64,000 nucleotides of DNA, taken from the NCBI RefSeq assembly GCF_000969415.1, contig NZ_JZEX01000108.1, positions 62,001-126,000 of the forward strand, given 5' to 3'. The notes beneath the pieces are model-generated. The model saw only the letters and a list, made by a program, of their open reading frames with translations, had not been told where the DNA came from and searched no databases. Of the stretch, positions 3,564-27,523 are shown one piece after another. Made by a program: the position numbers and the translations under genes. How positions within the stretch are numbered: position 1 is the stretch's first letter; each line of letters opens with the position of its first letter. Source of the stretch: Devosia geojensis. GTDB lineage: Bacteria > Pseudomonadota > Alphaproteobacteria > Rhizobiales > Devosiaceae.

Positions 3564-3592
3564 GGTATTGCTCCGCGAAAGGGGGATGGGGA

Positions 3593-4957: not shown

Positions 4958-5020
4958 AGTGAGTCTCCGGGATGAATTTGCGTCACGCCGAGGCGCGGCG
5001 CAGGTGGATGGTTCCGTTGG

Positions 5021-6612: not shown

Positions 6613-6644
6613 CGCAAATCTCCTGGGTCAGGGGTTCTGGGAAC

Positions 6645-7673: not shown

Positions 7674-7857
7674 GTTCCCTTCCAATCCCGAATGGCAGCG
7701 AGGATGAGAAGGATAGAATTGGGTGCTGTTAAATTCTATAGATTTAGTAGAATTAAGTGTCCAACAAGAGGCCACGCGGTGAGAAAGAAGCTTTCGCTCC
7801 TCGCGATCCGATTAGAAAGAAGCCATCACGGGCACGTGAAAGCAATGCGCACGAGCT
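7674..7857 (-). promoter_or_regulatory. AT-rich promoter region of the organosulfur operon with inverted repeat
   Basis: This 184-base gap between the SDR stop and ssuA is much more AT-rich than its surroundings. AATTCTA (7732-7738) and TAGAATT (7748-7754) form a perfect 7-base inverted repeat with a 9-base spacer, and a third copy, TAGAATT, is at 7714-7720. A possible minus-strand promoter is TTGGAC (7759-7764), 18 bases, TATAGA (7735-7740), so the repeat would cover the -10 box. AGAAAGAAGC also occurs twice (7782-7791, 7814-7823). The binding factor is unknown; sulfur operons are often under LysR control (CysB/Cbl), but no regulator is encoded nearby. Confidence 0.45.
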
Positions 7858-8643
7858 TCAAATCGAACGTATCGTGCCGCCGTCTACGCGCACCAGCGAA
7901 CCGGTGACGTAGGATGCCCGTTCGCTGACGAGGAACGCCACGACATCGGCGAGCTCCTCCGGCCTGCCGTAGCGGCCCGCCGGGATCGTCGCGAGCGAGG
8001 CCTTGCGCACGTCTTCGACGGATTTGCCGAGCCGCTTGGCGGTCGCCGCGTCGAGCTCGTCGACGCGATCGGTATGGATGCGCCCCTGCACCACGACGTT
8101 GACCGTCACGCCATCCGCCGCGACTTCGCTCGCCAGCGTCTTGCTCCAGCCGACCAGCGATTGCCGCAACGCGTTGGAAAGGGCGAGGCGCGGAATGGGG
8201 GATTCGACGCCGGAGGAGGTCAGCGTGACGACGCGCCCCCATTTGCGCTCGACCATACCGGGCAGCATTGCCTGCGTGATGGCGATGAGGGGCGATACCA
8301 TCACGCCGAACTGCTTCTCGAATGTTGCCGCTTCGATCTCGCGCGCCTCGCCCGGAGGCGGCCCACCCGAATTGTTGACGACGATGTCGACGCCGCCTTG
8401 TGCTGCGAGGGAGGCGATAAGTTGCGCGACCGATCCGGAGTCCGCCAGGTCCAGCGCAGCGGCAACGATCTCTCCCGTCGCGCCGGCTTCGAGCTCCTTG
8501 TTGAGCGCTCCGATGGCGTCGGTCGAACGCGCCGCGCCGATGACGTGAGCGCCCTCGTTGCCCAGCGCTACGGCAATCGCCGCGCCGAGCCCCTTGCTTG
8601 CCCCGATGACAAGTGCGCGCTTGCCGTCCAGCCCCAGTTTCAT
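7858..8643 (-). CDS. SDR-family oxidoreductase lacking the YxxxK motif
   Basis: A 261-residue Rossmann-fold protein. The dinucleotide site reads IGASKGLG near residue 14, and NNSGG replaces the usual NNAG. The catalytic Ser region TLTSSG is present, but the Tyr-x-x-x-Lys motif is absent: LALSNALRQSLVGWSK stands in its place. This matches the BKR-like SDR subgroup known to depart from the standard tetrad. The C-terminus (PAGRYGRPEELADVVAFL, VRVDGG) is typical SDR. It is the last gene of the dehydratase operon, overlapping the upstream gene by ATGA, so a sugar or sugar-acid dehydrogenase role is inferred but the chemistry is open. Confidence 0.8.
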   Translation of the reverse strand: MKLGLDGKRALVIGASKGLGAAIAVALGNEGAHVIGAARSTDAIGALNKELEAGATGEIVAAALDLADSGSVAQLIASLAAQGGVDIVVNNSGGPPPGEAREIEAATFEKQFGVMVSPLIAITQAMLPGMVERKWGRVVTLTSSGVESPIPRLALSNALRQSLVGWSKTLASEVAADGVTVNVVVQGRIHTDRVDELDAATAKRLGKSVEDVRKASLATIPAGRYGRPEELADVVAFLVSERASYVTGSLVRVDGGTIRSI

Positions 8644-9572
8644 GCGCCGATCTCCTGCAGCCGGCGTTCCTGGCGCGCCAGTAGCCGCTCGACGTCGGCG
8701 ACGTCGGCAGGCGAAAGCGCGGCTCCCGGCTTGCGCAGCTTGCCTGTCGCGATCACGCCCCGCTTGGCCAGCACGTATTTGCGGCAGGCGAGGCCGATCC
8801 CCTGCTGCTGCTCGTAGCGGGCAAGCGGCAGGTAGGCATCGAAGATGTCATGCGCCCGCTCCGCATCGCCCTTCTGGTACTCGGAAACGACGCCGACCAT
8901 CATTTCAGGGTAGCAGAACCCCGTCATCGCCCCATCGGCGCCGCGTCCCATCTCCTCGGGCAGGAACAACCCGCCATTGCCGCAGAGGATGGAGATGCGC
9001 CGCGTCTCCCCCTTGTCGCTCGAGGCGCGCAGCGCGCTGATCTTGGAAAGGCCCGGCCAGTCCTCGTGCTTGAGCATCACGCAGGTCGGCACGTCGCGCA
9101 CGATCCGCTCGATAACCTTGGGTGCGATGGTGACGTTGGTGGTCAGCGGATAGTCCTGCAGCACGAACGGCACGGGCCCAAGCGCCTCGCCGACGGACGC
9201 ATAGTAATTGTAGACCTGGTCGTCGGTCGAAAGCGTCCATGGCGGCGCGACCATCACCCCGGCCGCACCCATGTCCATCACCGCGTCGGTCAGCTCGCGC
9301 ATCGGCGCCAGGCCCGGCGCCGAGACCCCGACGACCACCGGCAGCCGGTCCCCGGCGCGCGCGACCACCCGTTGGGCAAGTTCGCGCGATTCGGCGGCGG
9401 TGAGCTTGGGTGCTTCGCCAAGCTGACCGAGGATAGTCAGCCCCGTCGCGCCTGCTTCCGCGTAGAAATCGACCATCCGGTCGATGCTGGCGAGATCGAC
9501 GGCTCCGTCGTCGCCGAACGGCGTGACGGCGATGATGTAGACGCCCTTGGCGTCTTCGGTCAGCAGCGGCAT
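8640..9572 (-). CDS. DapA-family (dihydrodipicolinate synthase-like) aldolase or dehydratase
   Basis: A 310-residue class I aldolase-fold protein. The Schiff-base lysine is expected in MLKHEDWPG (about residue 167) and the general-acid Tyr in LQDYPLT (about residue 138). GQLGEAPKL stands where DapA has GTTGE. Residues around the active site differ from true DapA, and the neighbours are not lysine genes, so a 2-keto-3-deoxy sugar-acid aldolase or dehydratase is more likely. Start at MPLLTED; the preceding reading overlaps the upstream gene. It is translationally coupled to the SDR gene. In an IlvD-type pathway it would act directly after the dehydratase. Confidence 0.8.
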   Translation of the reverse strand: MPLLTEDAKGVYIIAVTPFGDDGAVDLASIDRMVDFYAEAGATGLTILGQLGEAPKLTAAESRELAQRVVARAGDRLPVVVGVSAPGLAPMRELTDAVMDMGAAGVMVAPPWTLSTDDQVYNYYASVGEALGPVPFVLQDYPLTTNVTIAPKVIERIVRDVPTCVMLKHEDWPGLSKISALRASSDKGETRRISILCGNGGLFLPEEMGRGADGAMTGFCYPEMMVGVVSEYQKGDAERAHDIFDAYLPLARYEQQQGIGLACRKYVLAKRGVIATGKLRKPGAALSPADVADVERLLARQERRLQEIGA

Positions 9573-9594
9573 GGCTGGTCTCCAGGCATTAAGG

Positions 9595-10455
9595 TCAGTC
9601 GGACCAATAGAGGGCATCCGGATTGCGCACGAAAACGGTCTCGTGGCAATGCCGGGGCAGGGCGTCGAGGGCGAGCGCGACGAGGTCATCCTCCTCGGGC
9701 ATCGCCTCGAAGAGCTCGGTATGCGGCCAGTCGCTGCCCCAGAGCAGCCGCTCGGGGTGGGTGGCGGCAAGACCCGCAACGACCTCGCGATAGCCGTCGC
9801 GGCGCGTATTGTCGCGCAGCCGATAGGGCGCGGTGATCTTGAGAAGCACGGTTCCGCCGTCCAGCACGCGCCGCAGGGCCGCCAAAACATTGCCTGGCTC
9901 ATCGAGTGGCATGAAGGCAAGGTGATCGATCACGGCGGTCAGACCCGTCCGGCGCCCGATGCCGGCGACCACATCGAGGCTGTTCGGCTTGACCTGGAAC
10001 TGAAGATGCCATCCGTGCCGGGCGATGCGGGGACCAAGAGCCTCGATCGCCTCCAGCCCGATGCCTGCCTTGTTGGTCAGGTTGATCCGGATGCCGCGCA
10101 CGCCGAGGCGGCGAAGGCGGGCAAGTTCGGCATCGCCCGCCGTTCCGTCGATGACGACGACGCCGCGCAGGCGCTTGGGTTCGGCCGCGAGCGCGGTCAG
10201 CAGCACGCTGTTGTCGAGCCCGTAGACGCTCGGTTGCACGACGATGCCGCGCGCGATGTTGAAGCTTTCCGCCAGCGCCAGCCAGCCCGCCAGTGTCTCG
10301 GGTCGCGGCGTATAGCTGCGCACGGCGGCCAGGGGGGCGTCTGCGGCAAAGACGTGCAGATGGCTGTCGCAGGTGCCGTCGGGCAGCTTGATGCCCGCGC
10401 GGTTGCGTAGCGGCCTCGGCGGCAGGCAGAGCGCGGCTTCGGTCAAGCTAGCCAT
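9595..10455 (-). CDS. Amidohydrolase-2 family protein, probable sugar lactonase/isomerase
   Basis: A 286-residue TIM-barrel metal-dependent hydrolase of the Amidohydrolase_2 family (LigI and D-galactarolactone isomerase group). The metal-site motif DSHLHVF is near residue 29; VIDHLAFMP and LLWGSDWPHTE carry later active-site His and Asp. The start MASLTEA overlaps the end of the dehydratase gene by 8 bases. Placement before an IlvD-type dehydratase suggests lactone opening between sugar oxidation and dehydration; members of this family also isomerise lactones. Exact substrate unknown. Confidence 0.75.
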   Translation of the reverse strand: MASLTEAALCLPPRPLRNRAGIKLPDGTCDSHLHVFAADAPLAAVRSYTPRPETLAGWLALAESFNIARGIVVQPSVYGLDNSVLLTALAAEPKRLRGVVVIDGTAGDAELARLRRLGVRGIRINLTNKAGIGLEAIEALGPRIARHGWHLQFQVKPNSLDVVAGIGRRTGLTAVIDHLAFMPLDEPGNVLAALRRVLDGGTVLLKITAPYRLRDNTRRDGYREVVAGLAATHPERLLWGSDWPHTELFEAMPEEDDLVALALDALPRHCHETVFVRNPDALYWSD

Positions 10456-12148
10456 CGACTCCGTCCTGCAGGAAATCGAAGTCGACGCCGTCATCGGCCT
10501 GCATCACGTGCTCCTGGTAGAGACGGGCGTAGCCCCGACGCTCAGCGGAGGGGCGCGGCTCCAGCGCCGCCATGCGGGCCTCCAGTTCTTCGGGGGGAAC
10601 CAGAAGCTCGAGCCGGCGCGCCGGCACGTCCAGGCGAATGCGGTCGCCGGTCCTGACGATGGCCAGCGGCCCTCCGTCGGCGGCCTCGGGCGTGACGTGC
10701 AGAATGACGGTGCCGAAGGCGGTGCCGCTCATGCGCGCGTCGGAAATGCGCACCATGTCCTTGACGCCTTGCCGCGCCAGGTGGCGAGGAATGGGGATGT
10801 AACCGGCCTCGGGCATCCCCGGCGCGCCCTTGGGGCCGGCATTGCGCAGCACGAGAACGTCGTCGGCGGCGATGGCGAGGGTTTCGTCGTCGTCGAGACG
10901 GCGCGTCATGTCCTCGACGGATTCGAAGACGACCGCACGGCCTTCATGGACCTGCAGGGCGGGAGACGCCGCCGAATGCTTGATGACGGCGCCGCGCGGG
11001 GCAAGATTGCCCGAGAGCACGGCAATCGCGCCGGTTTCCGACACGGGCTGCGTACGGCGGCGGATGATGTGCTCTTCGTGGCGGGCAGGCAGTTTCGCGA
11101 CGGCGTCCGCGATGGTCCCGCCGAAAGCACGCGGCGCGGAAAGGTCCAGTACGTCCGCGATCTCGGAGAGAAGCCGCGGCACGCCGCCGGCTGCGTGGAA
11201 CTCGCCCATATAGGCGACGCCCGAAGGTTTGAGGTCCACCAGCACGGGCACCTCGCGCCCCAGCCTGTCGAGTTCGGCCATGTCGAGCTTGCGGCCAAGT
11301 CGACCGTAGACGGCCGCCAGATGCACCACCGCATTGGTCGATCCGCCGAGCGCCTGCAGCACGGCAAGGCCATTGCGCAGGGCAGACGGCGTCAGCACTT
11401 CGGCCGCCGTCGGGCCATCATGCGCCATGGCCACCGCGGCCCGGCCGGTTTCTTCTGCGATGCGCACCCGCTCGGCAGAAGTTGCCGGCGCCGACCCGGA
11501 CATCGGAAGCGCCAACCCCATCGCTTCGACGAGGCAGGCCATGGTGGAAGCCGTGCCCATCACGGTACAGGTGCCGACCGAACTCACCAGCCGCCCGTTG
11601 ATCTCGCCGATCTCCTCGCCGTCGATTGTGCCAGCGCGGTACTGGCCCCATATGCGCCGGCAATCGGTGCAGGCCCCCAGCCGCTCGCCGCGATGGTTGC
11701 CGGTCTCCATCGGCCCGGTGGGCAGGATGATGGCCGGCACCTCGCTGCTGGCCGCCGCCATCATCTGGGCGGGGATGGTCTTGTCGCACCCGCCGATCAG
11801 GATGACCGCATCCATGGGCTGGGCGCGCACCATCTCCTCGGTTTCCATGGCCATCAAATTGCGCAGGAACATGGACGTAGGCGCCGCGAAGCTCTCGTGG
11901 ATCGACATGGTCGGGAAGACCATGGGCATGCCGCCCGCCAGCATCACGCCGCGCTTGGCCGCTTCGATCAGTTGCGGCACGTTGCCGTGGCATGGGTTGT
12001 AGTCGGAATAGGTGTTGGCGATGCCGACGATCGGCCTGTCGAGCGCGTCGTCGGAATACCCCATGGCCTTAATGAAGGCCTTGCGCAGGAAGAGCGAGAA
12101 TTCCTCGTCCCCATAGCTCGTCAGTCGCCTGCGAAGTCCGCGCGTCAA
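10448..12148 (-). CDS. IlvD/Edd-family sugar-acid dehydratase (arabonate/xylonate type)
   Basis: A 566-residue Fe-S dehydratase. The three cluster-related cysteines are in NPCHGN, GGCDKT and GACTDC; GSTNAVVHLAA is another family landmark. Length and motifs fit the pentonate/hexonate dehydratases in the IlvD superfamily; the catabolic neighbours argue against branched-chain amino acid synthesis. A TTG start is chosen because a GGGAGGT ribosome site sits just upstream and the overlapping ATG runs into a stop in its own frame; a longer in-frame ATG at 12205 has no such site. First gene of a minus operon continuing to the lactonase, DapA-like and SDR genes. Product would be a 2-keto-3-deoxy acid. 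Confidence 0.85.
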   Translation of the reverse strand: MTRGLRRRLTSYGDEEFSLFLRKAFIKAMGYSDDALDRPIVGIANTYSDYNPCHGNVPQLIEAAKRGVMLAGGMPMVFPTMSIHESFAAPTSMFLRNLMAMETEEMVRAQPMDAVILIGGCDKTIPAQMMAAASSEVPAIILPTGPMETGNHRGERLGACTDCRRIWGQYRAGTIDGEEIGEINGRLVSSVGTCTVMGTASTMACLVEAMGLALPMSGSAPATSAERVRIAEETGRAAVAMAHDGPTAAEVLTPSALRNGLAVLQALGGSTNAVVHLAAVYGRLGRKLDMAELDRLGREVPVLVDLKPSGVAYMGEFHAAGGVPRLLSEIADVLDLSAPRAFGGTIADAVAKLPARHEEHIIRRRTQPVSETGAIAVLSGNLAPRGAVIKHSAASPALQVHEGRAVVFESVEDMTRRLDDDETLAIAADDVLVLRNAGPKGAPGMPEAGYIPIPRHLARQGVKDMVRISDARMSGTAFGTVILHVTPEAADGGPLAIVRTGDRIRLDVPARRLELLVPPEELEARMAALEPRPSAERRGYARLYQEHVMQADDGVDFDFLQDGVDG

Positions 12149-12360
12149 ACCATACCTCCCGGCGGATCTCCGCTGTTCATGTCCCGGGCATTCCAACAGG
12201 GGCATCTCAGATTGTCAATAAAAAACCCGGATAGGCATTTCCCGAGGCCATATACCCTCTCGAAAAATCGCCGGAAAATTCTTGACTCCTGCCTCTCCGT
12301 TGGGATTGGCGATGTGCACTGTCTGTGCAATATTATTGATAAAAATCACGGAGTCGGATT
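12149..12360. promoter_or_regulatory. Divergent promoter region with two putative GntR operators
   Basis: AT-rich 212-base gap between the dehydratase operon and the Gfo/Idh-regulator operon. TTGTCAATAA lies at 12212-12221 and TTATTGATAA (inverse orientation) at 12334-12343; both match the consensus TTRTCRATAA that recurs at 15800-15917. On the minus strand TTGACA (12213-12218), 17 bases, TGGAAT (12190-12195) could be the dehydratase promoter, with the first site over the -35 box. The second site lies 17 bases before the Gfo/Idh start. No other structure was seen. Confidence 0.5.
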
Positions 12361-13359
12361 TTGAAGGTTGGAGTGATCGGCGCAGGCTGGGTGACACAGT
12401 ACCACTTGCCCGGATGGCGGGCGCGCCCGGATGCGCGCGTGGTTGCGATCTGCGATCCCGATATCGCCGCCGCGCAGGCGCGCGCCGAAGCGTTCGGCAT
12501 ACCGGCGGTTTATGAGAGCGCCGATGCGATGCTGGCCGGGGAGGCGCTCGATTGCCTCGATGTCTGCTCTCCGCGCGAAAGCCACCCCGCCGACGTGCGT
12601 CGCGGCTTGGCGAACGGACTTGCCGTGCTCTGCCAGAAGCCCTTGGCCCCGACGCTGCCTGCAGCGGTGCGACTCGTCGCCGAGATCGGCGATGCCCGCG
12701 TGATGGTTCACGAGAACTGGCGCTTCCGGCCCTACTATCGCCGGCTGCACGGATGGTTGGGCGAGGGGGCGGTCGGCTCGGTTCGCGCGGTGCGGCTCGA
12801 ATTCCACTCGAGCGGCATGCTGCCCGACGAGACGGGCGCACGGCCGGCGCTTGTGCGCCAACCTTTCTTTCGTCGGCTCGAGCGGCTGCTGGTGATGGAG
12901 GTGCTGATCCACCACATCGACACCTTGCGCTTCCTTCTGGGAGAGCTCGATCTCGAGAGCGCGTGGCTGTCGCGCAGCAATGACGAGATCGTGGGCGAGG
13001 ACGTGGCGATCCTGCGCCTCAGGCGGCGCATCGATGGGGCTCCAGTCGATATCTGGGGCAACCTTGCCGTTCACGGAGCCCCGCCCGCGCCCGTCGATCG
13101 GCTGTGGATCCATGGAGAGGCAGCAACGGCGCAGCTCGACGGGACGGACCTTCGTTTGATCGGGCCGAAGGAGAGGACGGAGCGGTTCGATCCCGCGACG
13201 AGCTATCAGGCCGCCTATAGCGATGCCATCGCCCATTTCCTCGACTGCCTTCGCGAGGGCAGTCCGTTCGAGACCAATCCGGTGGACAATCTGGAGACGC
13301 TGCGCATCGTCGAGGCGGCCTACGCCACGAGTGGATTTCAAGCTACCCGGCAAAGCTGA
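12361..13359 (+). CDS. Gfo/Idh/MocA-family oxidoreductase
   Basis: A 332-residue NAD(P)-dependent oxidoreductase. The Rossmann motif VIGAGWV is at the N-terminus; the catalytic Lys of the family's EKP motif appears as CQKPLAP (about residue 98); a histidine-rich LIHHIDTLRF lies in the substrate domain. Translation starts at TTG, seven or so bases after a GGAG site. It faces the sugar-acid operon and precedes the GntR gene by under 45 bases, so oxidation of a monosaccharide or glycoside released in this pathway is the likely role. The substrate is not identifiable from sequence alone. Confidence 0.8.
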   Translation: MKVGVIGAGWVTQYHLPGWRARPDARVVAICDPDIAAAQARAEAFGIPAVYESADAMLAGEALDCLDVCSPRESHPADVRRGLANGLAVLCQKPLAPTLPAAVRLVAEIGDARVMVHENWRFRPYYRRLHGWLGEGAVGSVRAVRLEFHSSGMLPDETGARPALVRQPFFRRLERLLVMEVLIHHIDTLRFLLGELDLESAWLSRSNDEIVGEDVAILRLRRRIDGAPVDIWGNLAVHGAPPAPVDRLWIHGEAATAQLDGTDLRLIGPKERTERFDPATSYQAAYSDAIAHFLDCLREGSPFETNPVDNLETLRIVEAAYATSGFQATRQS

Positions 13360-13398
13360 TAGAAACGCGACAGTAAACCCTGCACCCTGGATGTGCCG

Positions 13399-14055
13399 AT
13401 GATGAGCGAGCTTGACCGCACCGAGCACGAGGACGAGCGCATCGTGCGCGCGCTGGAAGAAGACATCATCTTCGGCCGGCTGGCGCCCGGCACGCGGCTG
13501 ACCGAGGATTCCCTGCTCTCGCGGTTTCCGGTTACCCGCCATTTCGTGCGCCAGGCCCTGGTGCAGCTCGAGCAGATGGGCGTCGTGGTGCGCGAGCGCA
13601 ACAAGGGCGCGACCGTCCGCTCGCTCACGGCCGACGAAGTGCGCCAGATCTATGCCGTTCGCGAACTGGTGCAACGACAGGCGGCCTTGCTCATTCCTCT
13701 GCCCGCTCGGCAATCGCTGATCGACGAACTGTTGGCGATCCACAAGGAGCATGGCGAGCACATCGAATCCGGATATCTGCGCGGCGTGCACGAGACCAAT
13801 GACCGCTTCCATCTCACCCTGTTCGGGGCGTGCGGCAACAAGTACCTGGTTCAGACGATCGAGCTCTACATGCGCTTCAGCCTGCCGGTCCGCGCCAACT
13901 CCATGTCCGATCGGTCGGCGCTCGATATCGCCCACAGCCAGCACGCCCTGATGATCGAGATGCTGAAAGGCCGGGATAACTGGGTCCTCGCCCAGCTCTG
14001 CGTCGACCACCTCCAGCCGAGCAAGAAGCGCTACATCGAACTCGTCGAAACCTGA
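13399..14055 (+). CDS. GntR-family regulator with FCD-type ligand domain
   Basis: A 218-residue regulator (a GTG six bases upstream or an ATG three bases downstream are alternative starts; no strong ribosome site distinguishes them). The N-terminal winged helix includes LAPGTRLTEDSLLSRF and VTRHFVRQALVQLEQMG; residues from about 85 form an all-helical FCD domain with possible metal-ligand residues in ETNDRFH and SQHALM. FCD regulators usually bind small acids or sugar acids and repress catabolic genes. Located between two divergent promoter regions that share a palindromic motif, it is the best candidate to bind them. Confidence 0.8.
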   Translation: MMSELDRTEHEDERIVRALEEDIIFGRLAPGTRLTEDSLLSRFPVTRHFVRQALVQLEQMGVVVRERNKGATVRSLTADEVRQIYAVRELVQRQAALLIPLPARQSLIDELLAIHKEHGEHIESGYLRGVHETNDRFHLTLFGACGNKYLVQTIELYMRFSLPVRANSMSDRSALDIAHSQHALMIEMLKGRDNWVLAQLCVDHLQPSKKRYIELVET

Positions 14056-14062
14056 AAAACGA

Positions 14063-14091
14063 GGCGCCCGCCCGGGAGGAGGGCGGGCGCC
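14063..14091. terminator. Strong hairpin between convergent genes
   Basis: GGCGCCCGCCC (14063-14073) pairs perfectly with GGGCGGGCGCC (14081-14091) around a 7-base loop. Read on the minus strand the stem is followed by CTCGTTTTTC, so it is a rho-independent-like terminator for the GH39 transcript; it may also stop the GntR transcript from the other side. Confidence 0.75.
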
Positions 14092-14111
14092 GGGTGCCGC
14101 AGGCGCGAGTA

Positions 14112-15713
14112 TCACCACTCGAGCCGGAGGAGCGACACGCCTTGTCGCGGCAGCTGGACCGAGAGGACCGCCTTGCCGTCCTTCGCCTCGACCGTGCCCG
14201 TTTCCAGGGTTGCCAGTTTGCCCGCGGCCTCGAGCCGCGCGTAGTCGGCGCCCGTCACGTCCTGGGGCGAGCCCATCTGTTTCCAGACGCCGAAGGCGTT
14301 GGAATGATCCTTGTCCATGCGGTAATGACTGAGCGAGAGGTTGCCGGCCGGCAACCCCGCCAATGCCACCGACACGTTCGCTGCTCCATCCTCGACATCG
14401 TCGTCATGATAGTTCCAGACGAGAACGCTGACGCCCTTGTCGTCGCGCGTGGCGACGGCGTTGACGTCGGCCTGCTCGCGCACGCCGTGTTCGAGAATGG
14501 TCTGCAGGTCGAGGGCGTGGTCGCTCTTTGCCTCGATCCACTCGCCCTTGAGCATGCCGAGCATGCGGAAGGCATTGAGCACCGCTTTGTCGACGCCGTT
14601 GGTCGCGAGGTCGCGGAAGCCGTCGAACCAGGGCTGCTCTTCGAAGAGGAAGGCCCAGGTCACCGCGCCCTCGATCTCTATCCCCGCACGCTGTGAAATT
14701 TCGTACGTGCGCAGCATGCTTTCAACGACATATGCCCCGTAAAGGGGACCATTCCGGTAACCGTTCTGGGGGTGAATCCGCGCCGAACACGCTGCGCACC
14801 CTTCCGGATCGGACTCGCCGATCACCGTCGGCAGATGCCTGAGGGTCGGAAACTCGTTGACGATCGAAAGATTGGTCTCGATGTCCCGCAGCTGCTTGGC
14901 GACGCCCATGCGCACGTGGTCCTTCCAGATCACCGGATTGCCCTTGGCGTGGAAGGCGATGAAGTCGATGGGGCTGTCGTTCTCGACGACGAGCCGCAGG
15001 AATTCGCGCAGGAACGTTTGCGCGCGCGGGTTGGAGAACGCGCCGCAAGTATGCGGGCCGCCGACGCGGGCGCCGGGCAGGGCGCGTTTGATGGCCTTGG
15101 CAGTGACGTCGTAAAGCTCCCAGAACTGGGCCACGGTTCCCTTCCAATAGGCTCCGTCCGGCTCGTTCCACACCTCCCACGGCCATGACAGCACTTTTTC
15201 CTCACCGTAACGGTCGGCCAGGTGCCGCGCCCAGGCATGGATCAGCCCGCCCCACTTCTTGAGATCGTTGGGTGGCGCGGCCCAGCCGGTGGTGATCGTG
15301 CCGTAGTCGCCGCCGATGGACCATTTGTGCCGGTAAGGCCCCGGATCGTCGGAGAGAGCCTCCGGCGTGAACCCGACCTGGATGAGGGGAATGTTCCCGG
15401 CTTCGACATAGGCGTCGAAGATATTGTCCATGATCGTCCAGTCGTAGACCGGATTGCCGTTCGCATCTTCGGTATAGGCGTTGGTCGAGCCCCACTTGAG
15501 GGCATACTTGCCATCGCCCGAGGTCAGGAGATTATGGGTACGCACGCGCACCGGCTCGGGGCTGAGTTCCGTGAGCTCCTTCAGCAGCTTCTTGCCGTTC
15601 GCCGTATAGGTGTAGTTGGGCTCGTCGTACCCGAACCAGTTCCAGAGCGGCCGATAGGCGCCTCGGCTCGTGCCTGCGTCGACGTCGATGGTGACGTCAT
15701 ACGTCGTAGTCAT
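14112..15713 (-). CDS. GH39-type glycosidase (beta-xylosidase-like), cytoplasmic
   Basis: A 533-residue clan GH-A (beta/alpha)8 hydrolase. The acid/base is Glu184 in WEVWNEPD and the nucleophile candidate Glu300 in TVIGESDPEG, spacing and motifs as in GH39 (beta-xylosidases and alpha-L-iduronidases). There is no signal peptide, so it should act on oligosaccharides after uptake. The start MTTTYDV has a GGAG site. It is divergent from an Opp-type importer and shares its control region, which contains three copies of the putative GntR operator. Specificity within GH39 is not determined. Confidence 0.8.
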   Translation of the reverse strand: MTTTYDVTIDVDAGTSRGAYRPLWNWFGYDEPNYTYTANGKKLLKELTELSPEPVRVRTHNLLTSGDGKYALKWGSTNAYTEDANGNPVYDWTIMDNIFDAYVEAGNIPLIQVGFTPEALSDDPGPYRHKWSIGGDYGTITTGWAAPPNDLKKWGGLIHAWARHLADRYGEEKVLSWPWEVWNEPDGAYWKGTVAQFWELYDVTAKAIKRALPGARVGGPHTCGAFSNPRAQTFLREFLRLVVENDSPIDFIAFHAKGNPVIWKDHVRMGVAKQLRDIETNLSIVNEFPTLRHLPTVIGESDPEGCAACSARIHPQNGYRNGPLYGAYVVESMLRTYEISQRAGIEIEGAVTWAFLFEEQPWFDGFRDLATNGVDKAVLNAFRMLGMLKGEWIEAKSDHALDLQTILEHGVREQADVNAVATRDDKGVSVLVWNYHDDDVEDGAANVSVALAGLPAGNLSLSHYRMDKDHSNAFGVWKQMGSPQDVTGADYARLEAAGKLATLETGTVEAKDGKAVLSVQLPRQGVSLLRLEW

Positions 15714-16037
15714 CCGGTTTCTCCAGCCTCGTTGAGTCGGTCGCGTCGACGGCTCCGTGCCGGCCGCGCCATGGTCGCAACGTAACCCAGTCGCTACTTT
15801 TGTCAATAATACGAGCCGGTATTATCGGCGAAAGTTCGGTCGCACCGCTGCTATGGCGTATTTTCCTCCGTGTTTTGTCGATAATCGTATTGCCATTCAA
15901 TTGAGAATTGTCGATAAAGAAGGTGGACCGGCGCCATGGAGGATAATGGCGCCGCGTCTCCAACAGAGGGGAGCGGCGAGGGTGCGATGCCCGGACGCCG
16001 CCCAGCCCGCCGGGTGCGGGCGACAGGAGGAACGACC
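15714..16037. promoter_or_regulatory. Divergent promoter region with three putative GntR operators
   Basis: A 324-base gap between the GH39 gene and the importer operon. TTGTCAATAA is at 15800-15809 and TTGTCGATAA at 15875-15884 and 15908-15917; a half-site TTATCGG is at 15822-15828. A plus-strand promoter TTGCCA (15890-15895), 17 bases, GATAAA (15913-15918) overlaps the third site. A minus-strand promoter TTGACA (15801-15806), 16 bases, TACGTT (15779-15784) overlaps the first. The layout fits repression by the nearby GntR protein. The rest is the leader with an AGGAGG site at 16025-16030. Confidence 0.55.
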
Positions 16038-17942
16038 ATGATGTTCAAGACATTGGTCGCGGCAGCACTGGGCCTTGCCATGACGGTCCTGCCCGCCGCC
16101 GCGCAGGATTTCATCGCCGGCATACCGCGCAACGAAGCACTGATCATCCAGGGACCGGCGGCGCAGAACGCCGAGTGGTTCAATCTGTGGGCTCCGGGTG
16201 GCGGGGCCAGCAACAACGGGCTGCAGCAGCTGACCGCCGACACGTTCTGGTTCATCAACCCGGAAGGAACCGGGGACTCGGCCTGGACCAACGCGCTCGC
16301 CGCCGACCGTCCGCAGTATAATGAGGACTTCACCCAGATGACGGTGAAGCTCAAGGAAGGCATCTACTGGAGCGACGGCGTCGAGTTCACCGCTGACGAC
16401 GTGGTCTTTACCGTCGAGACGCAGATCGCCAATCCCGGCATGGGCTGGAGCGCGCCGTTCACCGTGAATGTCGAAAGCGTCGAGGCGCCTGATCCGCGCA
16501 CGGTCGTATTCAATCTCAATGCACCCAACTCGCGCTTCCATACGCTCTTTACCGTGCGCTGGAACGCCGCCTGGATCATGCCAAAGCATGTGTTCGAGGG
16601 TGTCGAGGACCCGCTGGCCTTCAACAACAACCCGCCGGTGTCGCTCTCGGCCTATGTGCTGCACAGCTACGACACGGCCGGCAACTGGGTGATCTGGAAG
16701 CTGCGCGACGATTGGGAGCGCACCTCCATCGGCCAGGAGCTCGAGGAAGCGCCGCAGGTCAAATACGTCGTCTACCGCAACGCCGGCAATCCGGACGCGC
16801 GCGTCATCGAGCAGATGAACCACAATCTCGACGTCATCAACGACATCGCGCCCGAGGGCATGTTCACCATCGCCCGCCAGGCCGGCGCCAACAGCGCCTA
16901 CTGGTTCGACGGCTTCCCCTTTGCCCATCCGGACCCGACCCTGCCGTCGGTCCTCTTCAACCACCAGGTCGAGCCGTTCGAGAACAGGGACGTGCGCTGG
17001 GCGCTGGCCTTGCTCATCGACATCCGCGCCGTCGCGATGGGCTCCTATCGCGGGGCTGCCAACCTTGCCGCGCTCTCGACGCCCCCGACCGGCACGGCGA
17101 TCGTGGACTACTATGAGCCGATGCAACAATGGCTGACCGATTTCGAACTCGATACCGGCTCGCGCAGCATCCGGCCCTATGATCCGACCACCGCCGACCA
17201 GATCGCCGCTCTCGTGCGTCCGCAATGGGGCGACGACATCCCCGACGACCCGGACCTCCTGAAGCGCATGTTCGGCTTCGGCTGGTGGAAGCAGGACATC
17301 CAGGCAGCGACGGAGCTCCTGCAGAAGGCTGGCTTCACCAAGCAGGGCAACCAGTGGATGAAGCCGGACGGCACGCCGTTCACCATCCGCCTGATGGTCG
17401 AGGGCGACAATATCCCGACGCTGGCGCGTGCCGGCACCATCATCGCTCAGCAATGGTCGATGGAGGGCATCCAGACGACGGTCGACGTCGCCGGCCCCAC
17501 CAACGGGCAGCGCCTCGGCGCCGGCGACTTCGAGGCGGCCATATACTGGACCGTCGAGACCTGGGGCGGCCACCCGGACCTCTCGTTCTTCCTCGAGAGC
17601 TACCACTCGGACTTCATCAAGCCGTTGGGCGAGGTGCAGCCGCCGCGCAACCTGCAACGTTGGCAGGACGAGCGGCTCGATGCCATCATCGAGACCAACC
17701 GGACCGTCGCTTTCGACGATCCCAAGGTTGCCGAGCTCGGTATCGAGTACCTGCAACTCGCCGTCGAGGAGATGCCGTTCATCCCGCTGATGGCCTACAA
17801 CAAGTTCGCCCCGTTCGATACGACCTACTGGACCGGATACCCGAGCGCGGCAAACCCCTATGCGGCCTCCGGTCCGTTCTGGTCGAACCTGCGCTACATG
17901 ATCGTGGCACTCGAGGCCAACCCGAACGCCCCGCAATCCTGA
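16038..17942 (+). CDS. Opp/Dpp-type (SBP family 5) binding protein, probably for oligosaccharides
   Basis: A 634-residue periplasmic binding protein with signal peptide MMFKTLVAAALGLAMTVLPA and cleavage near AAAQ-D. Family 5 features include LKEGIYWSDGVEFTADDVVF (about residues 105-125) and FNHQVEPFENRDVRWAL. It is some 100 residues longer than standard DppA/OppA, like the cellobiose- and xylo-oligosaccharide-binding members of this family. An excellent AGGAGG site precedes the ATG. First gene of the operon running to 21729. An oligosaccharide ligand is inferred from the divergent GH39 gene and from the ATPase type. Confidence 0.82.
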   Translation: MMFKTLVAAALGLAMTVLPAAAQDFIAGIPRNEALIIQGPAAQNAEWFNLWAPGGGASNNGLQQLTADTFWFINPEGTGDSAWTNALAADRPQYNEDFTQMTVKLKEGIYWSDGVEFTADDVVFTVETQIANPGMGWSAPFTVNVESVEAPDPRTVVFNLNAPNSRFHTLFTVRWNAAWIMPKHVFEGVEDPLAFNNNPPVSLSAYVLHSYDTAGNWVIWKLRDDWERTSIGQELEEAPQVKYVVYRNAGNPDARVIEQMNHNLDVINDIAPEGMFTIARQAGANSAYWFDGFPFAHPDPTLPSVLFNHQVEPFENRDVRWALALLIDIRAVAMGSYRGAANLAALSTPPTGTAIVDYYEPMQQWLTDFELDTGSRSIRPYDPTTADQIAALVRPQWGDDIPDDPDLLKRMFGFGWWKQDIQAATELLQKAGFTKQGNQWMKPDGTPFTIRLMVEGDNIPTLARAGTIIAQQWSMEGIQTTVDVAGPTNGQRLGAGDFEAAIYWTVETWGGHPDLSFFLESYHSDFIKPLGEVQPPRNLQRWQDERLDAIIETNRTVAFDDPKVAELGIEYLQLAVEEMPFIPLMAYNKFAPFDTTYWTGYPSAANPYAASGPFWSNLRYMIVALEANPNAPQS

Positions 17943-17949
17943 CCTTTCG

Positions 17950-17979
17950 GCCGGGCGGCTTCACAGCTGCCCGGCTTTT
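17950..17979 (+). terminator. Intra-operon hairpin after the binding-protein gene
   Basis: GCCGGGC (17950-17956) pairs with GCCCGGC (17969-17975) and is followed by TTTT. It lies in the 59-base gap between the binding-protein stop and the first permease, and could act as a partial terminator or 3'-end stabiliser that keeps binding-protein levels above those of the membrane parts. Confidence 0.6.
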
Positions 17980-18001
17980 CATCCCAAGCAGCGGTGAGCA
18001 G

Positions 18002-19006
18002 ATGGACGGCTTTGCCAAGTATCTCGTCCGGCGCTTCTTCCAGTTCATCCTCGTGGTGTTCCTGGGCGTTTCGCTGACGTTTCTCATCACCAACCTGTCG
18101 CCGGTCGATCCGGTCGAGCAGACGGTTTCGCTGATGACCAATTTCGGCGCGACCGATCCGCGCTCGGTCGAGCTGATGCGCGAGGCGCTGGCTGAGCTCT
18201 ACGGCCTCCAAGGCTCGTTTCTCGATCAATACCTCTCGTTCTGGGGCAGGGTGGTGCGCGGCGATTTCGGCCCTTCGCTCTCGTCCTTCCCGACGCCCGT
18301 CATGTCGCTGATCATGGGCGCGTTGCCCTGGACCATCGGACTTCTAACACTGGCCGTCGTCATCACCTGGATACTCGGCAATCTGCTCGGAGCGCTCGCC
18401 GGCTATTTTCGCTCGAACCTGATGCTGAAGCTCGCCGGCGCGACTGTGATGGCGCTCCATCCCGTGCCGGCCTATATCCTCGGCCTCGTCCTGCTGCTCA
18501 TCTTCGGTTACGCGTGGCCGGTCCTGCCCATCTCGGGCGGCGCACAGATGAACCTGCAGCCGAGTTTGACGTTCGACTACATCCGGTCCTTGATCCTCCA
18601 CGGTACCTTGCCCGCGATGACGCTGGTGCTGGCGGGCATCGGCGGCTGGTTCATCTCCATGCGGTCGCTGGTCTCCAACATCGTCACTGACGATCACGTG
18701 GTCTATGCCGAACTTGGCGGCGTCTCCTCGAGCAAGATCTTCAGCCAGTACGTGGCGCGCAACGCCCTGCTGCCGCAGGTCACGGGGCTGGCGCTCAGCC
18801 TCGGCAGCGTGTTCGGCGGCGCGGTCATCACCGAGTTTCTCTTCAACTATCCCGGCATGGGACGGCTCCTGGTGCAGGGCATCTATCGCGGCGACTACAG
18901 CCTCGTGCTCGGAGTGACCACCATGTCGATCATCGCGGTCGCCATCGCCGTCTTCGTCATCGATCTCATCTATCCCCTGATCGACCCGCGCGTGAGGCTC
19001 GGCTGA
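18002..19006 (+). CDS. Opp/Dpp-type ABC permease (DppB-like)
   Basis: A 334-residue inner-membrane permease. The N-terminal YLVRRFFQFILVVFLGVSLTFL helix and SPVDPVEQ stretch are DppB hallmarks; an EAA-like loop is visible around ELGGVSSSKIFSQYVARNALLPQ. The start is preceded by GGTGAG and the gene overlaps the next by one base (TGATG). The long periplasmic region between TM1 and TM2 fits the DppB/OppB group. Pairs with the following permease. Confidence 0.85.
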   Translation: MDGFAKYLVRRFFQFILVVFLGVSLTFLITNLSPVDPVEQTVSLMTNFGATDPRSVELMREALAELYGLQGSFLDQYLSFWGRVVRGDFGPSLSSFPTPVMSLIMGALPWTIGLLTLAVVITWILGNLLGALAGYFRSNLMLKLAGATVMALHPVPAYILGLVLLLIFGYAWPVLPISGGAQMNLQPSLTFDYIRSLILHGTLPAMTLVLAGIGGWFISMRSLVSNIVTDDHVVYAELGGVSSSKIFSQYVARNALLPQVTGLALSLGSVFGGAVITEFLFNYPGMGRLLVQGIYRGDYSLVLGVTTMSIIAVAIAVFVIDLIYPLIDPRVRLG

Positions 19007-19863
19007 TGTTCAAGATCCTCCGCGACCTCCTGCGCTACAATGTCGAGTTCCTCATCGGTTTCGTGCTGACCGCAGGGATATTCCTTTTTGCGCTGGCGCA
19101 CTTCTTCGCGCCTTACCCCGATACCGCCATCTACCTGCTGCCGCCCGACATGCCGCCGTCGCCCGAATACTGGCTCGGCACCACCTCGCGCGGGCAGGAC
19201 GTCCTCTGGCAGATGAGCTCGGCCATCTGGAACACAATGACTTTCGGCCTGACGGTCACAGTCCTCAGCCGCCTGCTCGCCGTCACCGTCGGCATGGTCT
19301 CGGGGTATCTGGGCGGCAAATGGGACGAGGCGCTGATGACGGTCAACGATACGCTGATCGCGCTGCCCAACATCCCGATCCTGCTGCTCGTCTACTTCGT
19401 CATGCGCGACCAGATGAACTGGCCCGTGCTCGCGCTGACCGCCGCGCTCCTCGGCTGGAACCACGACGCGCGGCTCATCCGCTCTGTGGTCCTCAGCCTC
19501 CGCCATCGCGAGTTCACGCGCCATGCCGTGTTCGCCGGCATGAGCGTGCCGCAGATCCTCATCCGCCAGCATCTGCCTTATGTGATGCCGGTGGTGTTCT
19601 TCACCGCGATGAACAACCTCATCTGGGCGATCGGCCTCGAGGTCACCCTCTCGGTCCTGGGCTTTTCCGATATCAACCGGCCGACCATTGGCGGCATGAT
19701 CTACTGGGCCAACCAGCACCAGGCGATCATCGCCGGCATCTGGTGGTGGATCGCCTTCCCCATCATCGCCATCGTGATCCTGTTCCTCGGCCTCTTCCTG
19801 CTCGCGATCTCGGTCAACGAATACATCGACCCGCGCAGCCGACTGAGCCGGATGGGAGGCTGA
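19006..19863 (+). CDS. Opp/Dpp-type ABC permease (DppC-like)
   Basis: A 285-residue permease with an N-terminal helix (about residues 15-35), then PEYWLGTTSRGQDVLWQMSS, the standard DppC landmark (GTDxxGRDV) here varied to GTTSRGQDV. The EAA loop is HAVFAGMSVPQILIRQHLPY. It is translationally coupled to the first permease and lies four bases before the ATPase gene. The GTTSRGQDV variant is also typical of oligosaccharide-type members of the family. Confidence 0.84.
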   Translation: MFKILRDLLRYNVEFLIGFVLTAGIFLFALAHFFAPYPDTAIYLLPPDMPPSPEYWLGTTSRGQDVLWQMSSAIWNTMTFGLTVTVLSRLLAVTVGMVSGYLGGKWDEALMTVNDTLIALPNIPILLLVYFVMRDQMNWPVLALTAALLGWNHDARLIRSVVLSLRHREFTRHAVFAGMSVPQILIRQHLPYVMPVVFFTAMNNLIWAIGLEVTLSVLGFSDINRPTIGGMIYWANQHQAIIAGIWWWIAFPIIAIVILFLGLFLLAISVNEYIDPRSRLSRMGG

Positions 19864-19867
19864 ACCA

Positions 19868-20887
19868 ATGCTCGCAGCAACCATTGACGCACCGACCCGC
19901 ACCCGCCCGGTCCTCGAGGTCGAGAACCTCAAGGCCTACTACCAGATGAACTATTTCGGCGTGTCGCGCGAAGTGCGCGCCGTCGACGACGTGACGCTGA
20001 CCATCAACCGCAACGAGATCTATGGCATCGCCGGAGAATCCTCGTCGGGCAAGTCGACGCTGATCAAGACCATCGCCGGCGCCATCACGCCGCCGCTCCG
20101 GGTCGTCTCCGGCTCGGTCAAGTTCGATTTCGGCGGGTCGCAGCTTGATGTCTATGCCAGACCCAAGGCGATGAAGGCCGCCCGCTGGCGGCACCTCTCC
20201 TACATCATGCAGGGCTCGATGAACGTGTTGAACCCGGTCCGCAAGGTCCGGCACGCCTTCGACGACTTCGCCTTCAGGCATATGGGGCTTTCGCCGGCGC
20301 AGTTCCGCAGCCGGGTCGAGGGACACCTCAAGCGCCTCGGCCTCGATCCGCGGGTGCTCGAATCCTACCCGCACCAGCTCTCCGGCGGCATGCGCCAGCG
20401 CCTGACCATCGCGCTCGCGACCGTCTGCGAGCCCGAATTCATCATTGCCGATGAGCCGACGACCGCCCTCGACGTGCTCGTGCAGCAGGACGTGCTGGCT
20501 CTCATCAAGGACGTGCAGCAGCGCCTGGGCTCGTCGGTCGTCTTCGTCACCCACGACATGACTGTTCACGCCGCCATCGCCGATCGCATCGGCATCGTCT
20601 ATGCCGGCCGGCTGGTGGAGGAGGGACCGACCGACGACGCTTTCGCGCGGCCCCAGCACCCCTATACCGCGCACCTCATATCGAGCCTGCCGCGCCTCGG
20701 CGACGTCTCGCGGCGCAAGGCCTTGCCCGGCAAGCCGCCCAACCTCAGCGATCCGCCATCGGGCTGCCGCTTCCACCCGCGCTGTCCGCTCGCGATCGAC
20801 AGGTGCAAGGTCGAAAATCCTCCGCTCGTCTCGCGCGCCACCGGACGTGTCGCATGTTGGCGGGCAGGGGAGGTGGAGGTCGCATGA
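19868..20887 (+). CDS. Opp/Dpp-type ABC importer ATPase (DppD-like)
   Basis: A 339-residue ATPase. Walker A is GESSSGKST, the signature LSGGMRQRLTIA, Walker [13 protein letters not shown] and the H-loop VTHDM. The C-terminal oligopeptide/dipeptide domain carries the cysteine pattern CRFHPRCPLAIDRC (about residues 300-315), which in relatives holds an Fe-S cluster. GGAGG lies just before the start, and it overlaps the second ATPase by ATGA. Forms a heterodimer with the next gene product. Confidence 0.86.
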   Translation: MLAATIDAPTRTRPVLEVENLKAYYQMNYFGVSREVRAVDDVTLTINRNEIYGIAGESSSGKSTLIKTIAGAITPPLRVVSGSVKFDFGGSQLDVYARPKAMKAARWRHLSYIMQGSMNVLNPVRKVRHAFDDFAFRHMGLSPAQFRSRVEGHLKRLGLDPRVLESYPHQLSGGMRQRLTIALATVCEPEFIIADEPTTALDVLVQQDVLALIKDVQQRLGSSVVFVTHDMTVHAAIADRIGIVYAGRLVEEGPTDDAFARPQHPYTAHLISSLPRLGDVSRRKALPGKPPNLSDPPSGCRFHPRCPLAIDRCKVENPPLVSRATGRVACWRAGEVEVA

Positions 20888-21729
20888 GCGTGCTTCTCGA
20901 ACTCCAGTCGGTCACCAAGACCTTCTCCATCGGCGGCTTCTTCGACCGCAGCAAGCTGCAGGCGGTCAAGGGCGCGACCTTCGCCCTCGACGACACGCGG
21001 CCGGAGATATTCACCATCGTCGGCGAGTCCGGCAGCGGCAAAACCACCATTGCCCGCATGATCCTCGGCAACGAAACGCCGACGACCGGCACCATCCGCT
21101 TCATGGGCGAAGACGTGTCGCAGCTGCGCAGCCGTCGCCGGCGCCTTGCGTTCATGGCCAGGGTGCAGCCGATCTTTCAGAACCCGTTCGAGGCGTTCAA
21201 CCCGCTGACCACCCTCGATTACTATCTCTATTCCACCGCGAGACGCTTCCTGGGTGTGCGTGGCGCCGCCGCCGACGAAGCGCTCGACAAGGCCCTCAAC
21301 CATGTCGGTCTCTCCCTTGCCGAGGTGAAGGGACGCTATTCCCATGAGCTTTCCGGCGGCCAGCTCCAGCGCATTGCCGTCGCGCGGGCGCTGATCCCCG
21401 GTCCCAAGCTTATCGTCGCCGACGAGCCGGTCTCGATGGTCGATGCGTCGCTGCGGATGTCGATCGTCAATCTTTTCCGCACTTTACGCGACGATCTGGG
21501 CGTATCGATCATCTACATCACCCATGACCTGGCGACGGCCTATTACATCTCGGACCGCGTCATCATCATGCACAAAGGCGATGTCATAGAGGCGGGAGAG
21601 GCCAGGGCCGTTCTCGACAATCCGCAACAAGCGTACTCACTGGCTCTCAAGAACGCGGTGCTGCCCCCCGATCCGACCGCGGCACGACTCGCCCTCGAAA
21701 GACGCCGCTCGGCAGTTTCGGCAGTCTAA
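20884..21729 (+). CDS. Opp/Dpp-type ABC importer ATPase (DppF-like), oligosaccharide subgroup
   Basis: A 281-residue ATPase with Walker [10 protein letters not shown] and signature LSGGQLQRIAVAR. Walker B reads LIVADEPVSMVDAS rather than the peptide-type DEPTSALD; the DEPVSMVD form is typical of the Opp-like importers that carry oligosaccharides such as cellobiose. There is no C-terminal cysteine extension. Start coupled to the upstream ATPase. Last gene of the operon; the 146-base gap to the convergent GntR gene holds no feature I could identify. Confidence 0.84.
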   Translation: MSVLLELQSVTKTFSIGGFFDRSKLQAVKGATFALDDTRPEIFTIVGESGSGKTTIARMILGNETPTTGTIRFMGEDVSQLRSRRRRLAFMARVQPIFQNPFEAFNPLTTLDYYLYSTARRFLGVRGAAADEALDKALNHVGLSLAEVKGRYSHELSGGQLQRIAVARALIPGPKLIVADEPVSMVDASLRMSIVNLFRTLRDDLGVSIIYITHDLATAYYISDRVIIMHKGDVIEAGEARAVLDNPQQAYSLALKNAVLPPDPTAARLALERRRSAVSAV

Positions 21730-22607: not shown

Positions 22608-22677
22608 CGCGCCATGTCCTCCCGTATGGTGGCTTTACCCCCACACACCACGTTTCGCGCGTCTTGTCAGCCTCGCG

Positions 22678-23877: not shown

Positions 23878-23880
23878 GAT

Positions 23881-25691: not shown

Positions 25692-25704
25692 CGGTTCCTC
25701 CTTC

Positions 25705-27459: not shown

Positions 27460-27483
27460 GCGTTCTGCCCTGGCAGGAGTAGG

Positions 27484-27512
27484 GCGCTTCCCGGAAGGGC
27501 GCCGGGAAGCGC
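27484..27512 (-). terminator. Intra-operon hairpin after the binding-protein gene
   Basis: GCGCTTCCCGG (27484-27494) pairs perfectly with CCGGGAAGCGC (27502-27512) around a 7-base loop, in the 64-base gap between the binding-protein stop and the fused ATPase. No clear T run follows on the minus strand, so an mRNA-stabilising or processing role is as likely as partial termination. Confidence 0.6.
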
Positions 27513-27523
27513 GGTCGATCGCG

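Follow-up and report, generated by a model that had tools for sequence, protein, structure and literature searches.

Sugar oxidation by a dehydrogenase, a lactonase, a dehydratase and a DapA-fold enzyme follows an order of steps that is usual for these families, according to the available portion of PMC6336799, and the initial annotation of the DNA analyzed here was sound in expecting it. For L-2-keto-3-deoxyarabinonate (L-KDA) dehydratase, the accessible part of PMC9795676 describes Gln143 in place of the aldolase Tyr and Glu173 and Glu200 as bases, with Glu173 reportedly not conserved in other DHDPS/NAL enzymes. The closest architectural precedent for the system described below is the Rhizobium locus of the GH39 alpha-L-iduronidase 5ndx. 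The window, a stretch of 64,000 nucleotides, lies on one contig (NZ_JZEX01000108.1) of the 4.47-Mb draft genome of Devosia geojensis and carries at positions 7858 to 21729 twelve genes for an Opp-type importer, a GH39 glycosidase, a GntR-family regulator and a set of predicted sugar-oxidizing enzymes. These twelve genes are a real inherited unit of Devosia, beyond chance adjacency, because their order matches in other Devosia and Rhizobiales and an operator is common to both divergent intergenic gaps. The inclusion in the unit of the GntR gene (13393-14055), which the initial annotation had not named, and the operator common to the two gaps are new here.

Gene content and layout of the locus

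Scans of the window with Pfam and NCBIfam profiles recovered the gene families named in the initial annotation where it had placed them, including the ATPase with a DEPVSMVD motif. A four-gene operon on the minus strand encodes the IlvD/EDD, amidohydrolase-2, DapA-fold and SDR-fold proteins (12205 to 7858), with gene ends that overlap or are spaced by 22 bases. The Gfo/Idh/MocA and GntR genes (12361-14055) are divergent from this operon, and a lone minus-strand GH39 gene (15713-14112) is divergent from the five-gene Opp-type importer (16038-21729). A 590-codon minus-strand open reading frame (ORF) at 12346-14118 had no Pfam or NCBIfam matches and is a shadow of the Gfo and GntR genes. The features are as follows.

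7858..8643, minus strand: atypical SDR-fold protein, 261 amino acids (aa), last gene of the operon (Pfam adh_short_C2, 141.5 bits; motif alignment)
8640..9572, minus strand: DHDPS/NAL (DapA-fold) enzyme of the Gln-Lys-Glu type, 310 aa, predicted 2-keto-3-deoxy-sugar-acid dehydratase (Pfam, 101 bits; alignment to 7c0c)
9595..10455, minus strand: Amidohydro_2 (COG3618/LigI-like) protein, 286 aa, predicted sugar lactonase (Pfam, 108 bits, cut-off 26.4; PDB 2ffi, 4d8l, 4mup)
10448..12205, minus strand: IlvD/EDD dehydratase, 585-codon ORF whose real start is perhaps slightly downstream, predicted sugar-acid dehydratase (Pfam; NCBIfam PRK06131, 822 bits, cut-off 539; PDB 8ej0, 5j83)
12209..12345, no strand: gap between the IlvD and Gfo genes, with two operator-like sites at 12209-12221 and 12333-12345 (operator scan)
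12361..13359, plus strand: Gfo/Idh/MocA oxidoreductase, 332 aa, predicted aldose 1-dehydrogenase (Pfam GFO_IDH_MocA, 84.8 bits; PDB 5uhw)
13393..14055, plus strand: GntR-family regulator, 220 aa, predicted operator binder (NCBIfam PhnR-like GntR model, 92.9 bits, under cut-off; orthologues annotated GntR)
14112..15713, minus strand: GH39 glycosidase, 533 aa, cytoplasmic, catalytic Glu184 and Glu300 (Pfam, 160 bits, cut-off 26; AlphaFold2 predicted local distance difference test [pLDDT], 91.6)
15797..15917, no strand: gap between the GH39 and binding-protein genes, with three operator-like sites at 15797, 15872 and 15905 (operator scan)
16038..17942, plus strand: family-5 solute-binding protein, 634 aa, signal peptide by eye (Pfam SBP_bac_5, 150 bits; PDB 4pfu, 2o7i)
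18002..19006, plus strand: Opp-type permease B (BPD_transp_1), 334 aa (Pfam, 109 bits)
19006..19863, plus strand: Opp-type permease C (BPD_transp_1), 285 aa (Pfam, 71 bits)
19868..20887, plus strand: Opp-type ATPase D with an oligo_HPY tail, 339 aa (Pfam, 88.5 and 72.1 bits)
20884..21729, plus strand: Opp-type ATPase F with the DEPVSMVD motif, 281 aa (Pfam, 91.7 bits)

An operator common to both divergent gaps

Both divergent gaps carry the operator TTATYGACAATAA / TTGTCRATAA. Palindromes in several Devosia IlvD-Gfo gaps served to derive its consensus, TTATYGWCRATAA; neither the GH39 gaps nor any locus of Rhizobium, Sinorhizobium or Rhodobacterales contributed to the derivation. Using a scan of 24 chosen loci of those fetched, with at most two mismatches, the operator was identified in the GH39-binding-protein gap of all 24 and in the IlvD-Gfo gap of all 21 loci that possess it (three Rhodobacterales have no such gap). 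Across these loci there were 73 matches in 14.3 kb of gaps versus 25 in 514 kb elsewhere. Five of the six matches in the window fell inside the two gaps, each with two mismatches; shuffled controls gave a mean of 0.68 matches, and none of 100 shuffles reached six. The exact half-site TTGTCRATAA occurs eight times genome-wide, four of them in the two gaps, and the reversed control pattern occurs once. Two of the other four half-sites lie within called genes and two outside, and none could be tied to the pathway. Since the operator is common to both gaps and half of its exact genomic half-sites are found there, the twelve genes form one regulon that is nearly private to the locus. The GntR protein encoded alongside, which is 76 to 92% identical across all 14 other Devosia loci examined, is likely the protein that binds the operator.

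Conservation and spread of the unit

A GH39 of the window type was searched for in 61 genomes and was found in 15 of the 37 from the genus and in none of the 24 others from the order. Full-length relatives of the amidohydrolase (47 to 100% identity) accompanied it in 14 of these 15 genomes and were identified in none of the 22 genus genomes without GH39, among which two had short amidohydrolase fragments and some had full-length relatives of up to 35% identity. Two Devosia genomes in which the GH39 unit is missing, G016 (C1:3718802-3718972; 60%) and G020 (C9:175776-175910; 51%), have short C-terminal pieces of the amidohydrolase that are perhaps remnants of a lost copy.

At the 14 other Devosia loci fetched to compare gene content, GH39, GntR and all five importer genes were always present. 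The Gfo, IlvD, amidohydrolase and SDR genes were found at 13 and DapA at 12 (L045 and L046 are without it), giving a complete twelve-gene set at 11 loci and a partial one at the remaining three. The locus of Devosia RYN_485 (L049) has kept GH39, the importer, GntR and DapA and is without the oxidative four, and at L047 approximately 9 kb separates the two halves of the unit.

A wider scan over named genomes covered the best 80 of 568 GH39 relatives. Of these 80 loci, the 24 alphaproteobacterial ones (L066-L089) carry the importer with most or all of the enzymes, except at the ends of contigs or stretches and in L085, which is the L049 locus. GH39 alone was common to the remaining 56 (Bacteroidota, Acidobacteriota, Massilia and others), besides weak matches to common folds. 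Rhizobium and Sinorhizobium keep the unit, mostly without the SDR gene, and in the Rhodobacterales DapA has been swapped. Overall, the complete system for import, hydrolysis and oxidation envisaged in the initial annotation is supported by the operator common to both gaps and by the co-inheritance of most parts.

The DapA-fold gene is solitary in Rhizobium sp. NLR16a (L060 10001-10933), with a primosomal protein gene on one side and xerC a few genes away on the other; in Rhizobium johnstonii 3841 (L081 16327-17259) it forms the end of the unit, near an xerC-like gene.

The importer

Membership of the Opp type is indicated by the presence of SBP_bac_5, two BPD_transp_1 permeases and two ATPases, only one of which has an oligo_HPY tail. 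The nearest solved relatives of the binding protein were 4pfu, a sugar-binding family-5 protein also deposited as mannoside-binding, and other family-5 proteins. Importer paralogues of at least 51% identity were considered among 37 genomes. Of the 22 listed (51 to 57% identical), 21 have a GH51 arabinofuranosidase match at most 4 kb away on the same contig, the sole paralogue with no GH51 nearby being that of G012. One of these 21 GH51 matches is cut by a contig end and is below the cut-off, and one of the importers is that of the GH39-linked L049, where GH39, importer and GH51 stand in line on the same strand. An alpha-N-arabinofuranosidase gene also adjoins the importer (56 to 58% identical) at all three plasmid loci considered, from Rhizobium bangladeshense, Skermanella mucosa and Terrarubrum flagellatum. 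Because 4pfu is sugar-binding, the nearest paralogues adjoin GH51 and the 5ndx GH39 is also located in an Opp locus, Opp-type sugar import is ordinary in these bacteria, and its earlier description as an unusual entry route does not hold.

In the congener G016 (L205 6372-15379), an importer 57 to 64% alike is followed by GH51, and a 35% relative of the amidohydrolase lies immediately upstream.

The GH39 glycosidase

The glycosidase scored over the GH39 profile cut-off and has the (beta/alpha)8 fold with both catalytic Glu residues; Glu184 and Glu300 were invariant in 41 of 41 sequences. No signal peptide could be seen by eye in the protein of the window. Relatives outside the Alphaproteobacteria, including those of Bacteroidota, mostly have an apparent signal peptide at the start. 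The AlphaFold2 model matched GH39 beta-xylosidases best (Z, 36.9 to 38.5) versus 30.8 to 32.9 for alpha-L-iduronidases, a likeness of fold.

In Niastella, GH39 adjoins pectin-type genes (GH28, rhamnogalacturonan lyase 11, GH2 and GH88), and in L130 and L103 it lies near GH51-type genes. In Spirosoma and its relatives it is found near an enolase-type dehydratase, an SDR, GguC/AraD1 (417.7 bits; cut-off, 340), an MFS carrier and an aldehyde dehydrogenase. These neighboring families recur in 6 to 11 of 58 clustered loci, with one or two representatives of each scanned, and the neighborhood resembles a route of the pentonate type assembled from different families.

Enzymes of the proposed oxidative chain

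The initial annotation counted two oxidoreductases, and the Gfo/Idh/MocA and SDR folds were both found; the SDR-fold protein, however, is without the YxxxK of a classical SDR, as SN[AGS][LI]R occupies that position in all seven sequences aligned. The protein also has a DapA partner of this type in otherwise unrelated clusters of Microvirga (L059) and Sulfitobacter (L061). The Amidohydro_2 protein, a predicted COG3618 sugar lactonase, had six PDB matches at an E value of 0.001, including 2-pyrone-4,6-dicarboxylate hydrolases and 4mup. Relatives of the IlvD protein (60 to 69% identical) have diverse surroundings, with TTT transporters nearby in several cases, and gave no help in naming the substrate.

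The structure nearest to the DapA-fold enzyme is the unassigned 3dz1, followed by L-KDA dehydratase, to which the enzyme was aligned through 7c0c. In it and in every close relative aligned, the Gln and Lys are kept, as is the Glu located two residues past the Lys. Of the features of a Dahms-type aldolase, the Lys and GXXG are present, but Gln stands in place of the Tyr, both in the window protein and in all close relatives listed (at least 57% identity). Since the aldolase Tyr is lost and the Gln/Lys/Glu of L-KDA dehydratase are kept, dehydration seems likelier than aldol cleavage, contrary to the aldolase end step first proposed.

Proposed pathway and alternative readings

From the computed gene content, conservation of the unit, common operator and loss of the aldolase Tyr, we infer each catalytic step and the step order, binding of the operator by GntR, a pectic or arabinogalactan-type source and an aldopentose of the L-arabinose or D-xylose type. 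The Opp-type ABC importer would take up an intact plant cell-wall oligosaccharide, from which the cytoplasmic GH39 would remove the terminal sugar. The Gfo/Idh/MocA dehydrogenase would oxidize the released aldose at C1, producing a lactone whose ring the amidohydrolase-2 protein would open, and the IlvD/EDD enzyme would dehydrate the aldonate to a 2-keto-3-deoxy acid. Further dehydration by the DapA-fold enzyme would yield a semialdehyde, namely 2-oxoglutarate semialdehyde in the case of a pentose, and an aldehyde dehydrogenase encoded elsewhere could lead this product into the tricarboxylic acid cycle, with GntR controlling the whole unit as a single regulon. Our confidence in this reading, a self-contained GntR-controlled regulon in which the released sugar is an aldopentose and the end step a dehydratase reaction, is evenly balanced.

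Judging from gene neighborhoods, the substrate is likely to be a pectic or arabinogalactan-type oligosaccharide, with a pentose favored over a uronate. The link to arabinose and pectin comes from the GH51 genes near the importer paralogues and at the three plasmid loci and from the GH51 in line with the RYN_485 unit; the link to pentose comes from the Cytophagales GH39 genes near an enolase-type dehydratase, GguC/AraD1 and an aldehyde dehydrogenase. Such a source fits better than the hemicellulose or glycosaminoglycan initially suggested, although the GH39 protein has one Lys of the iduronidase carboxylate pocket. Plain xylose as the sole substrate is less likely, as the genome has a xylose isomerase, and apiose, an idea that arose from the likeness of the Gfo enzyme to 5uhw, was dropped after the literature yielded nothing usable.

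Several observations weigh against the aldopentose reading. The IlvD protein is under the cut-off of the L-arabinonate dehydratase model (PRK13016; 662.6 of 882 bits), and the catalytic Glu200 of L-KDA dehydratase aligns with a Gly in the DapA-fold enzyme. Canonical Tyr-type DapA is used in two Rhodobacterales clusters and in those of Variovorax and Sinorhizobium B11, so the last step has been exchanged between dehydratase-like and aldolase-like DapA in otherwise matching clusters. No aldehyde dehydrogenase is encoded in the unit, and the best genomic candidate for an alpha-ketoglutarate semialdehyde (KGSA) dehydrogenase is under its cut-off (556 of 770 bits). AraA had no match in the D. geojensis genome. 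The xylose isomerase, together with a second genomic set of two GH51 genes, an aldehyde dehydrogenase and an L-arabinonate dehydratase over the cut-off, means that the need for a spare pentose route is not obvious, which speaks against plain L-arabinose or xylose. The Cytophagales dehydratase scored best against L-rhamnonate dehydratase, below the cut-off; the dehydratase and aldehyde dehydrogenase of that set are under every informative cut-off, and the KGSA models matched poorly the aldehyde dehydrogenases found near GH39 in Cytophagales (86/750 bits) and that of the Variovorax cluster (298/770 bits). Finally, the Devosia IlvD-Gfo gaps are no independent test of the operator, as the motif was first read there, and the loci scanned were 24 chosen ones.

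In the main rival reading, a uronide would be the substrate instead, which we regard as possible but rather unlikely. GH39 would then be a uronidase, acting for example on beta-D-glucuronosyl or 4-O-methyl-glucuronosyl residues at the ends of side chains in arabinogalactan or rhamnogalacturonan I (RG-I), and the chain would handle a uronate, with the dehydrogenase producing an aldaro-lactone for the COG3618 lactonase, IlvD and the DapA-fold dehydratase. Consistent with this, the nucleophile motif ESDP resembles ECDP, the solved relatives of the lactonase include the 2-pyrone-4,6-dicarboxylate hydrolases and 4mup, which we take to be a galactarolactone isomerase, and the Rhizobium 5ndx GH39 is located in an Opp locus with sugar-acid genes. 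Also suggestive of a uronide is Lys257 of the HAKG motif, which is invariant in 41 of 41 sequences and falls in the same alignment column as Lys264 of human alpha-L-iduronidase, matched by HEKG in the Rhizobium enzyme; the column holds Tyr in 1px8 and two other GH39 proteins, one of them annotated as a beta-xylosidase. In the human enzyme, the substrate carboxylate is held by Arg363, Lys264 and two backbone NH groups, as given in the available portions of PMC6343074 and PMC10794756. Against a uronide, the GH39 family profile matched xylosidase-like sequences (E values, 3e-38 and 5e-35) better than the Rhizobium iduronidase (4e-27), a regional profile around HAKG ranked iduronidases first with a weak match only (E value, 0.06), the fold is nearer beta-xylosidases (Z, 37 to 38.5 versus 31 to 33), and the signature of the DapA-fold protein is one found in an enzyme whose substrate derives from a pentonate. 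The other iduronidase contacts are not kept: the column taken for Asp349 holds E, D, G or N, and the Arg taken for Arg363 is two residues off. R367 was rejected as the counterpart of Arg363, since the alignment is two columns off.

A hexose or deoxyhexose (galactose, fucose or rhamnose type) could also pass through the same chain, in which case the last enzyme would use a 2-keto-3-deoxy-hexonate; to this we assign a small chance. Hobbs in 2013 reportedly described similar sets of dehydrogenase, COG3618 lactonase and dehydratase for L-fucose, and the best score of the Cytophagales dehydratase, that to L-rhamnonate dehydratase, points the same way. However, none of the six PDB matches of the lactonase was named fuconolactonase, structures of which are presumably in the PDB, and GguC/AraD1 and the Gln-Lys-Glu DapA indicate pentonate derivatives; L-fucose was set aside on the absence of that name among the matches.

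More speculative, and in our view improbable, is a GH39 uronidase of new specificity for (4-O-methyl-)glucuronosyl ends of arabinogalactan or RG-I side chains, with a Gln-Lys-Glu DapA-fold enzyme that would strip C4 of a 2-keto-3-deoxy aldarate of its substituent (water or methanol) in a novel uronate route and an SDR-fold protein that, lacking YxxxK, would perhaps be a non-redox subunit. If true, a uronate that ordinary pathways cannot use would have its own route.

Chance adjacency of two or more unrelated systems, to which the parted halves at L047 and the four missing enzymes of RYN_485 might point, is very improbable and already contradicted by the nearly locus-private operator in both divergent gaps and by co-inheritance.

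The unit appears to be a small, self-regulated module for the use of plant cell-wall oligosaccharides, found in Rhizobiales from soil and roots, R. johnstonii 3841 among them. It also connects an unassigned GH39 subfamily with a catabolic route, a subfamily spread over Alphaproteobacteria, Bacteroidota, Acidobacteriota and others, and provides a shortlist of candidate substrates.

Flanking genes

Directly downstream of the four-gene operon and on the same strand (2934-7775) are genes for a flavin reductase, an NtaA/DmoA-family monooxygenase and an NMT1-type ABC transporter. A sulfo-sugar route suggested by these genes was rejected, as they are absent from the portions read of the other 14 Devosia loci (approximately 2 to 5 kb past the SDR gene), save one 37% ATPase match, and the monooxygenase is of the NtaA/DmoA subfamily. 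On the other side, 22678-29338 holds a class-V aminotransferase gene and a second Opp set (23881-29338), and a GntR/FCD regulator of the aminotransferase is encoded at 21876-22607. The aminotransferase and second Opp set are probably a separate system. The second set was not found at the other Devosia loci, mostly read for 1 to 3 kb past the importer, save in L047 and L049, where ATPases matched weakly (34% and 27%). Within the short flanks read, the genes at 2934-7775 and 21876-29338 were not found adjoining the unit elsewhere.

Comparison with known systems

The Weimberg-type (Route II) non-phosphorylative L-arabinose pathway of the Azospirillum type shares with the Devosia unit a Gfo/Idh/MocA enzyme, an IlvD/EDD enzyme and a DHDPS-fold enzyme, here a predicted dehydratase, with Gln/Lys/Glu, according to the accessible part of PMC9795676. 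Unlike that pathway, the Devosia unit adds an Opp importer and a cytoplasmic GH39 and is without an aldehyde dehydrogenase, and the genome has a separate arabinonate set. The lactonase also differs, being presumably SMP-30 in the Weimberg type versus an amidohydrolase-2 protein here.

GH39 beta-xylosidases (1px8, 2bfg and 4m29) are similar in fold and in both catalytic Glu residues; identity is approximately 24 to 28%, Lys replaces the Tyr of 1px8 in HA(Y/K), and the nucleophile loop of the Devosia protein reads ESDPEGCAAC. The GH51 and Opp loci of Devosia, Rhizobium, Skermanella and Terrarubrum use the same importer family, with binding proteins 51 to 58% identical, but with GH51 in place of GH39. 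No amidohydrolase-2, IlvD or DapA was annotated in the three plasmid loci as read; a Gfo/Idh/MocA gene lies approximately 5 kb off in Terrarubrum, and two dehydrogenase genes are nearby in Skermanella.

The Rhizobium leguminosarum 5ndx locus (L211 2297-14613) resembles the unit in clustering an Opp-type importer, a GH39 and sugar-acid genes. Its GH39 is approximately 22% identical to that of Devosia, and its catabolic genes are for a 5-deoxy-glucuronate isomerase, a hydroxyacid dehydrogenase and a mandelate-racemase type enzyme; the annotation of the 20 kb read includes none of Gfo, amidohydrolase-2, IlvD and DapA. A literature search found no paper on the twelve-gene unit, which does not prove that none exists. 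Each part of the Devosia unit is of a familiar kind.

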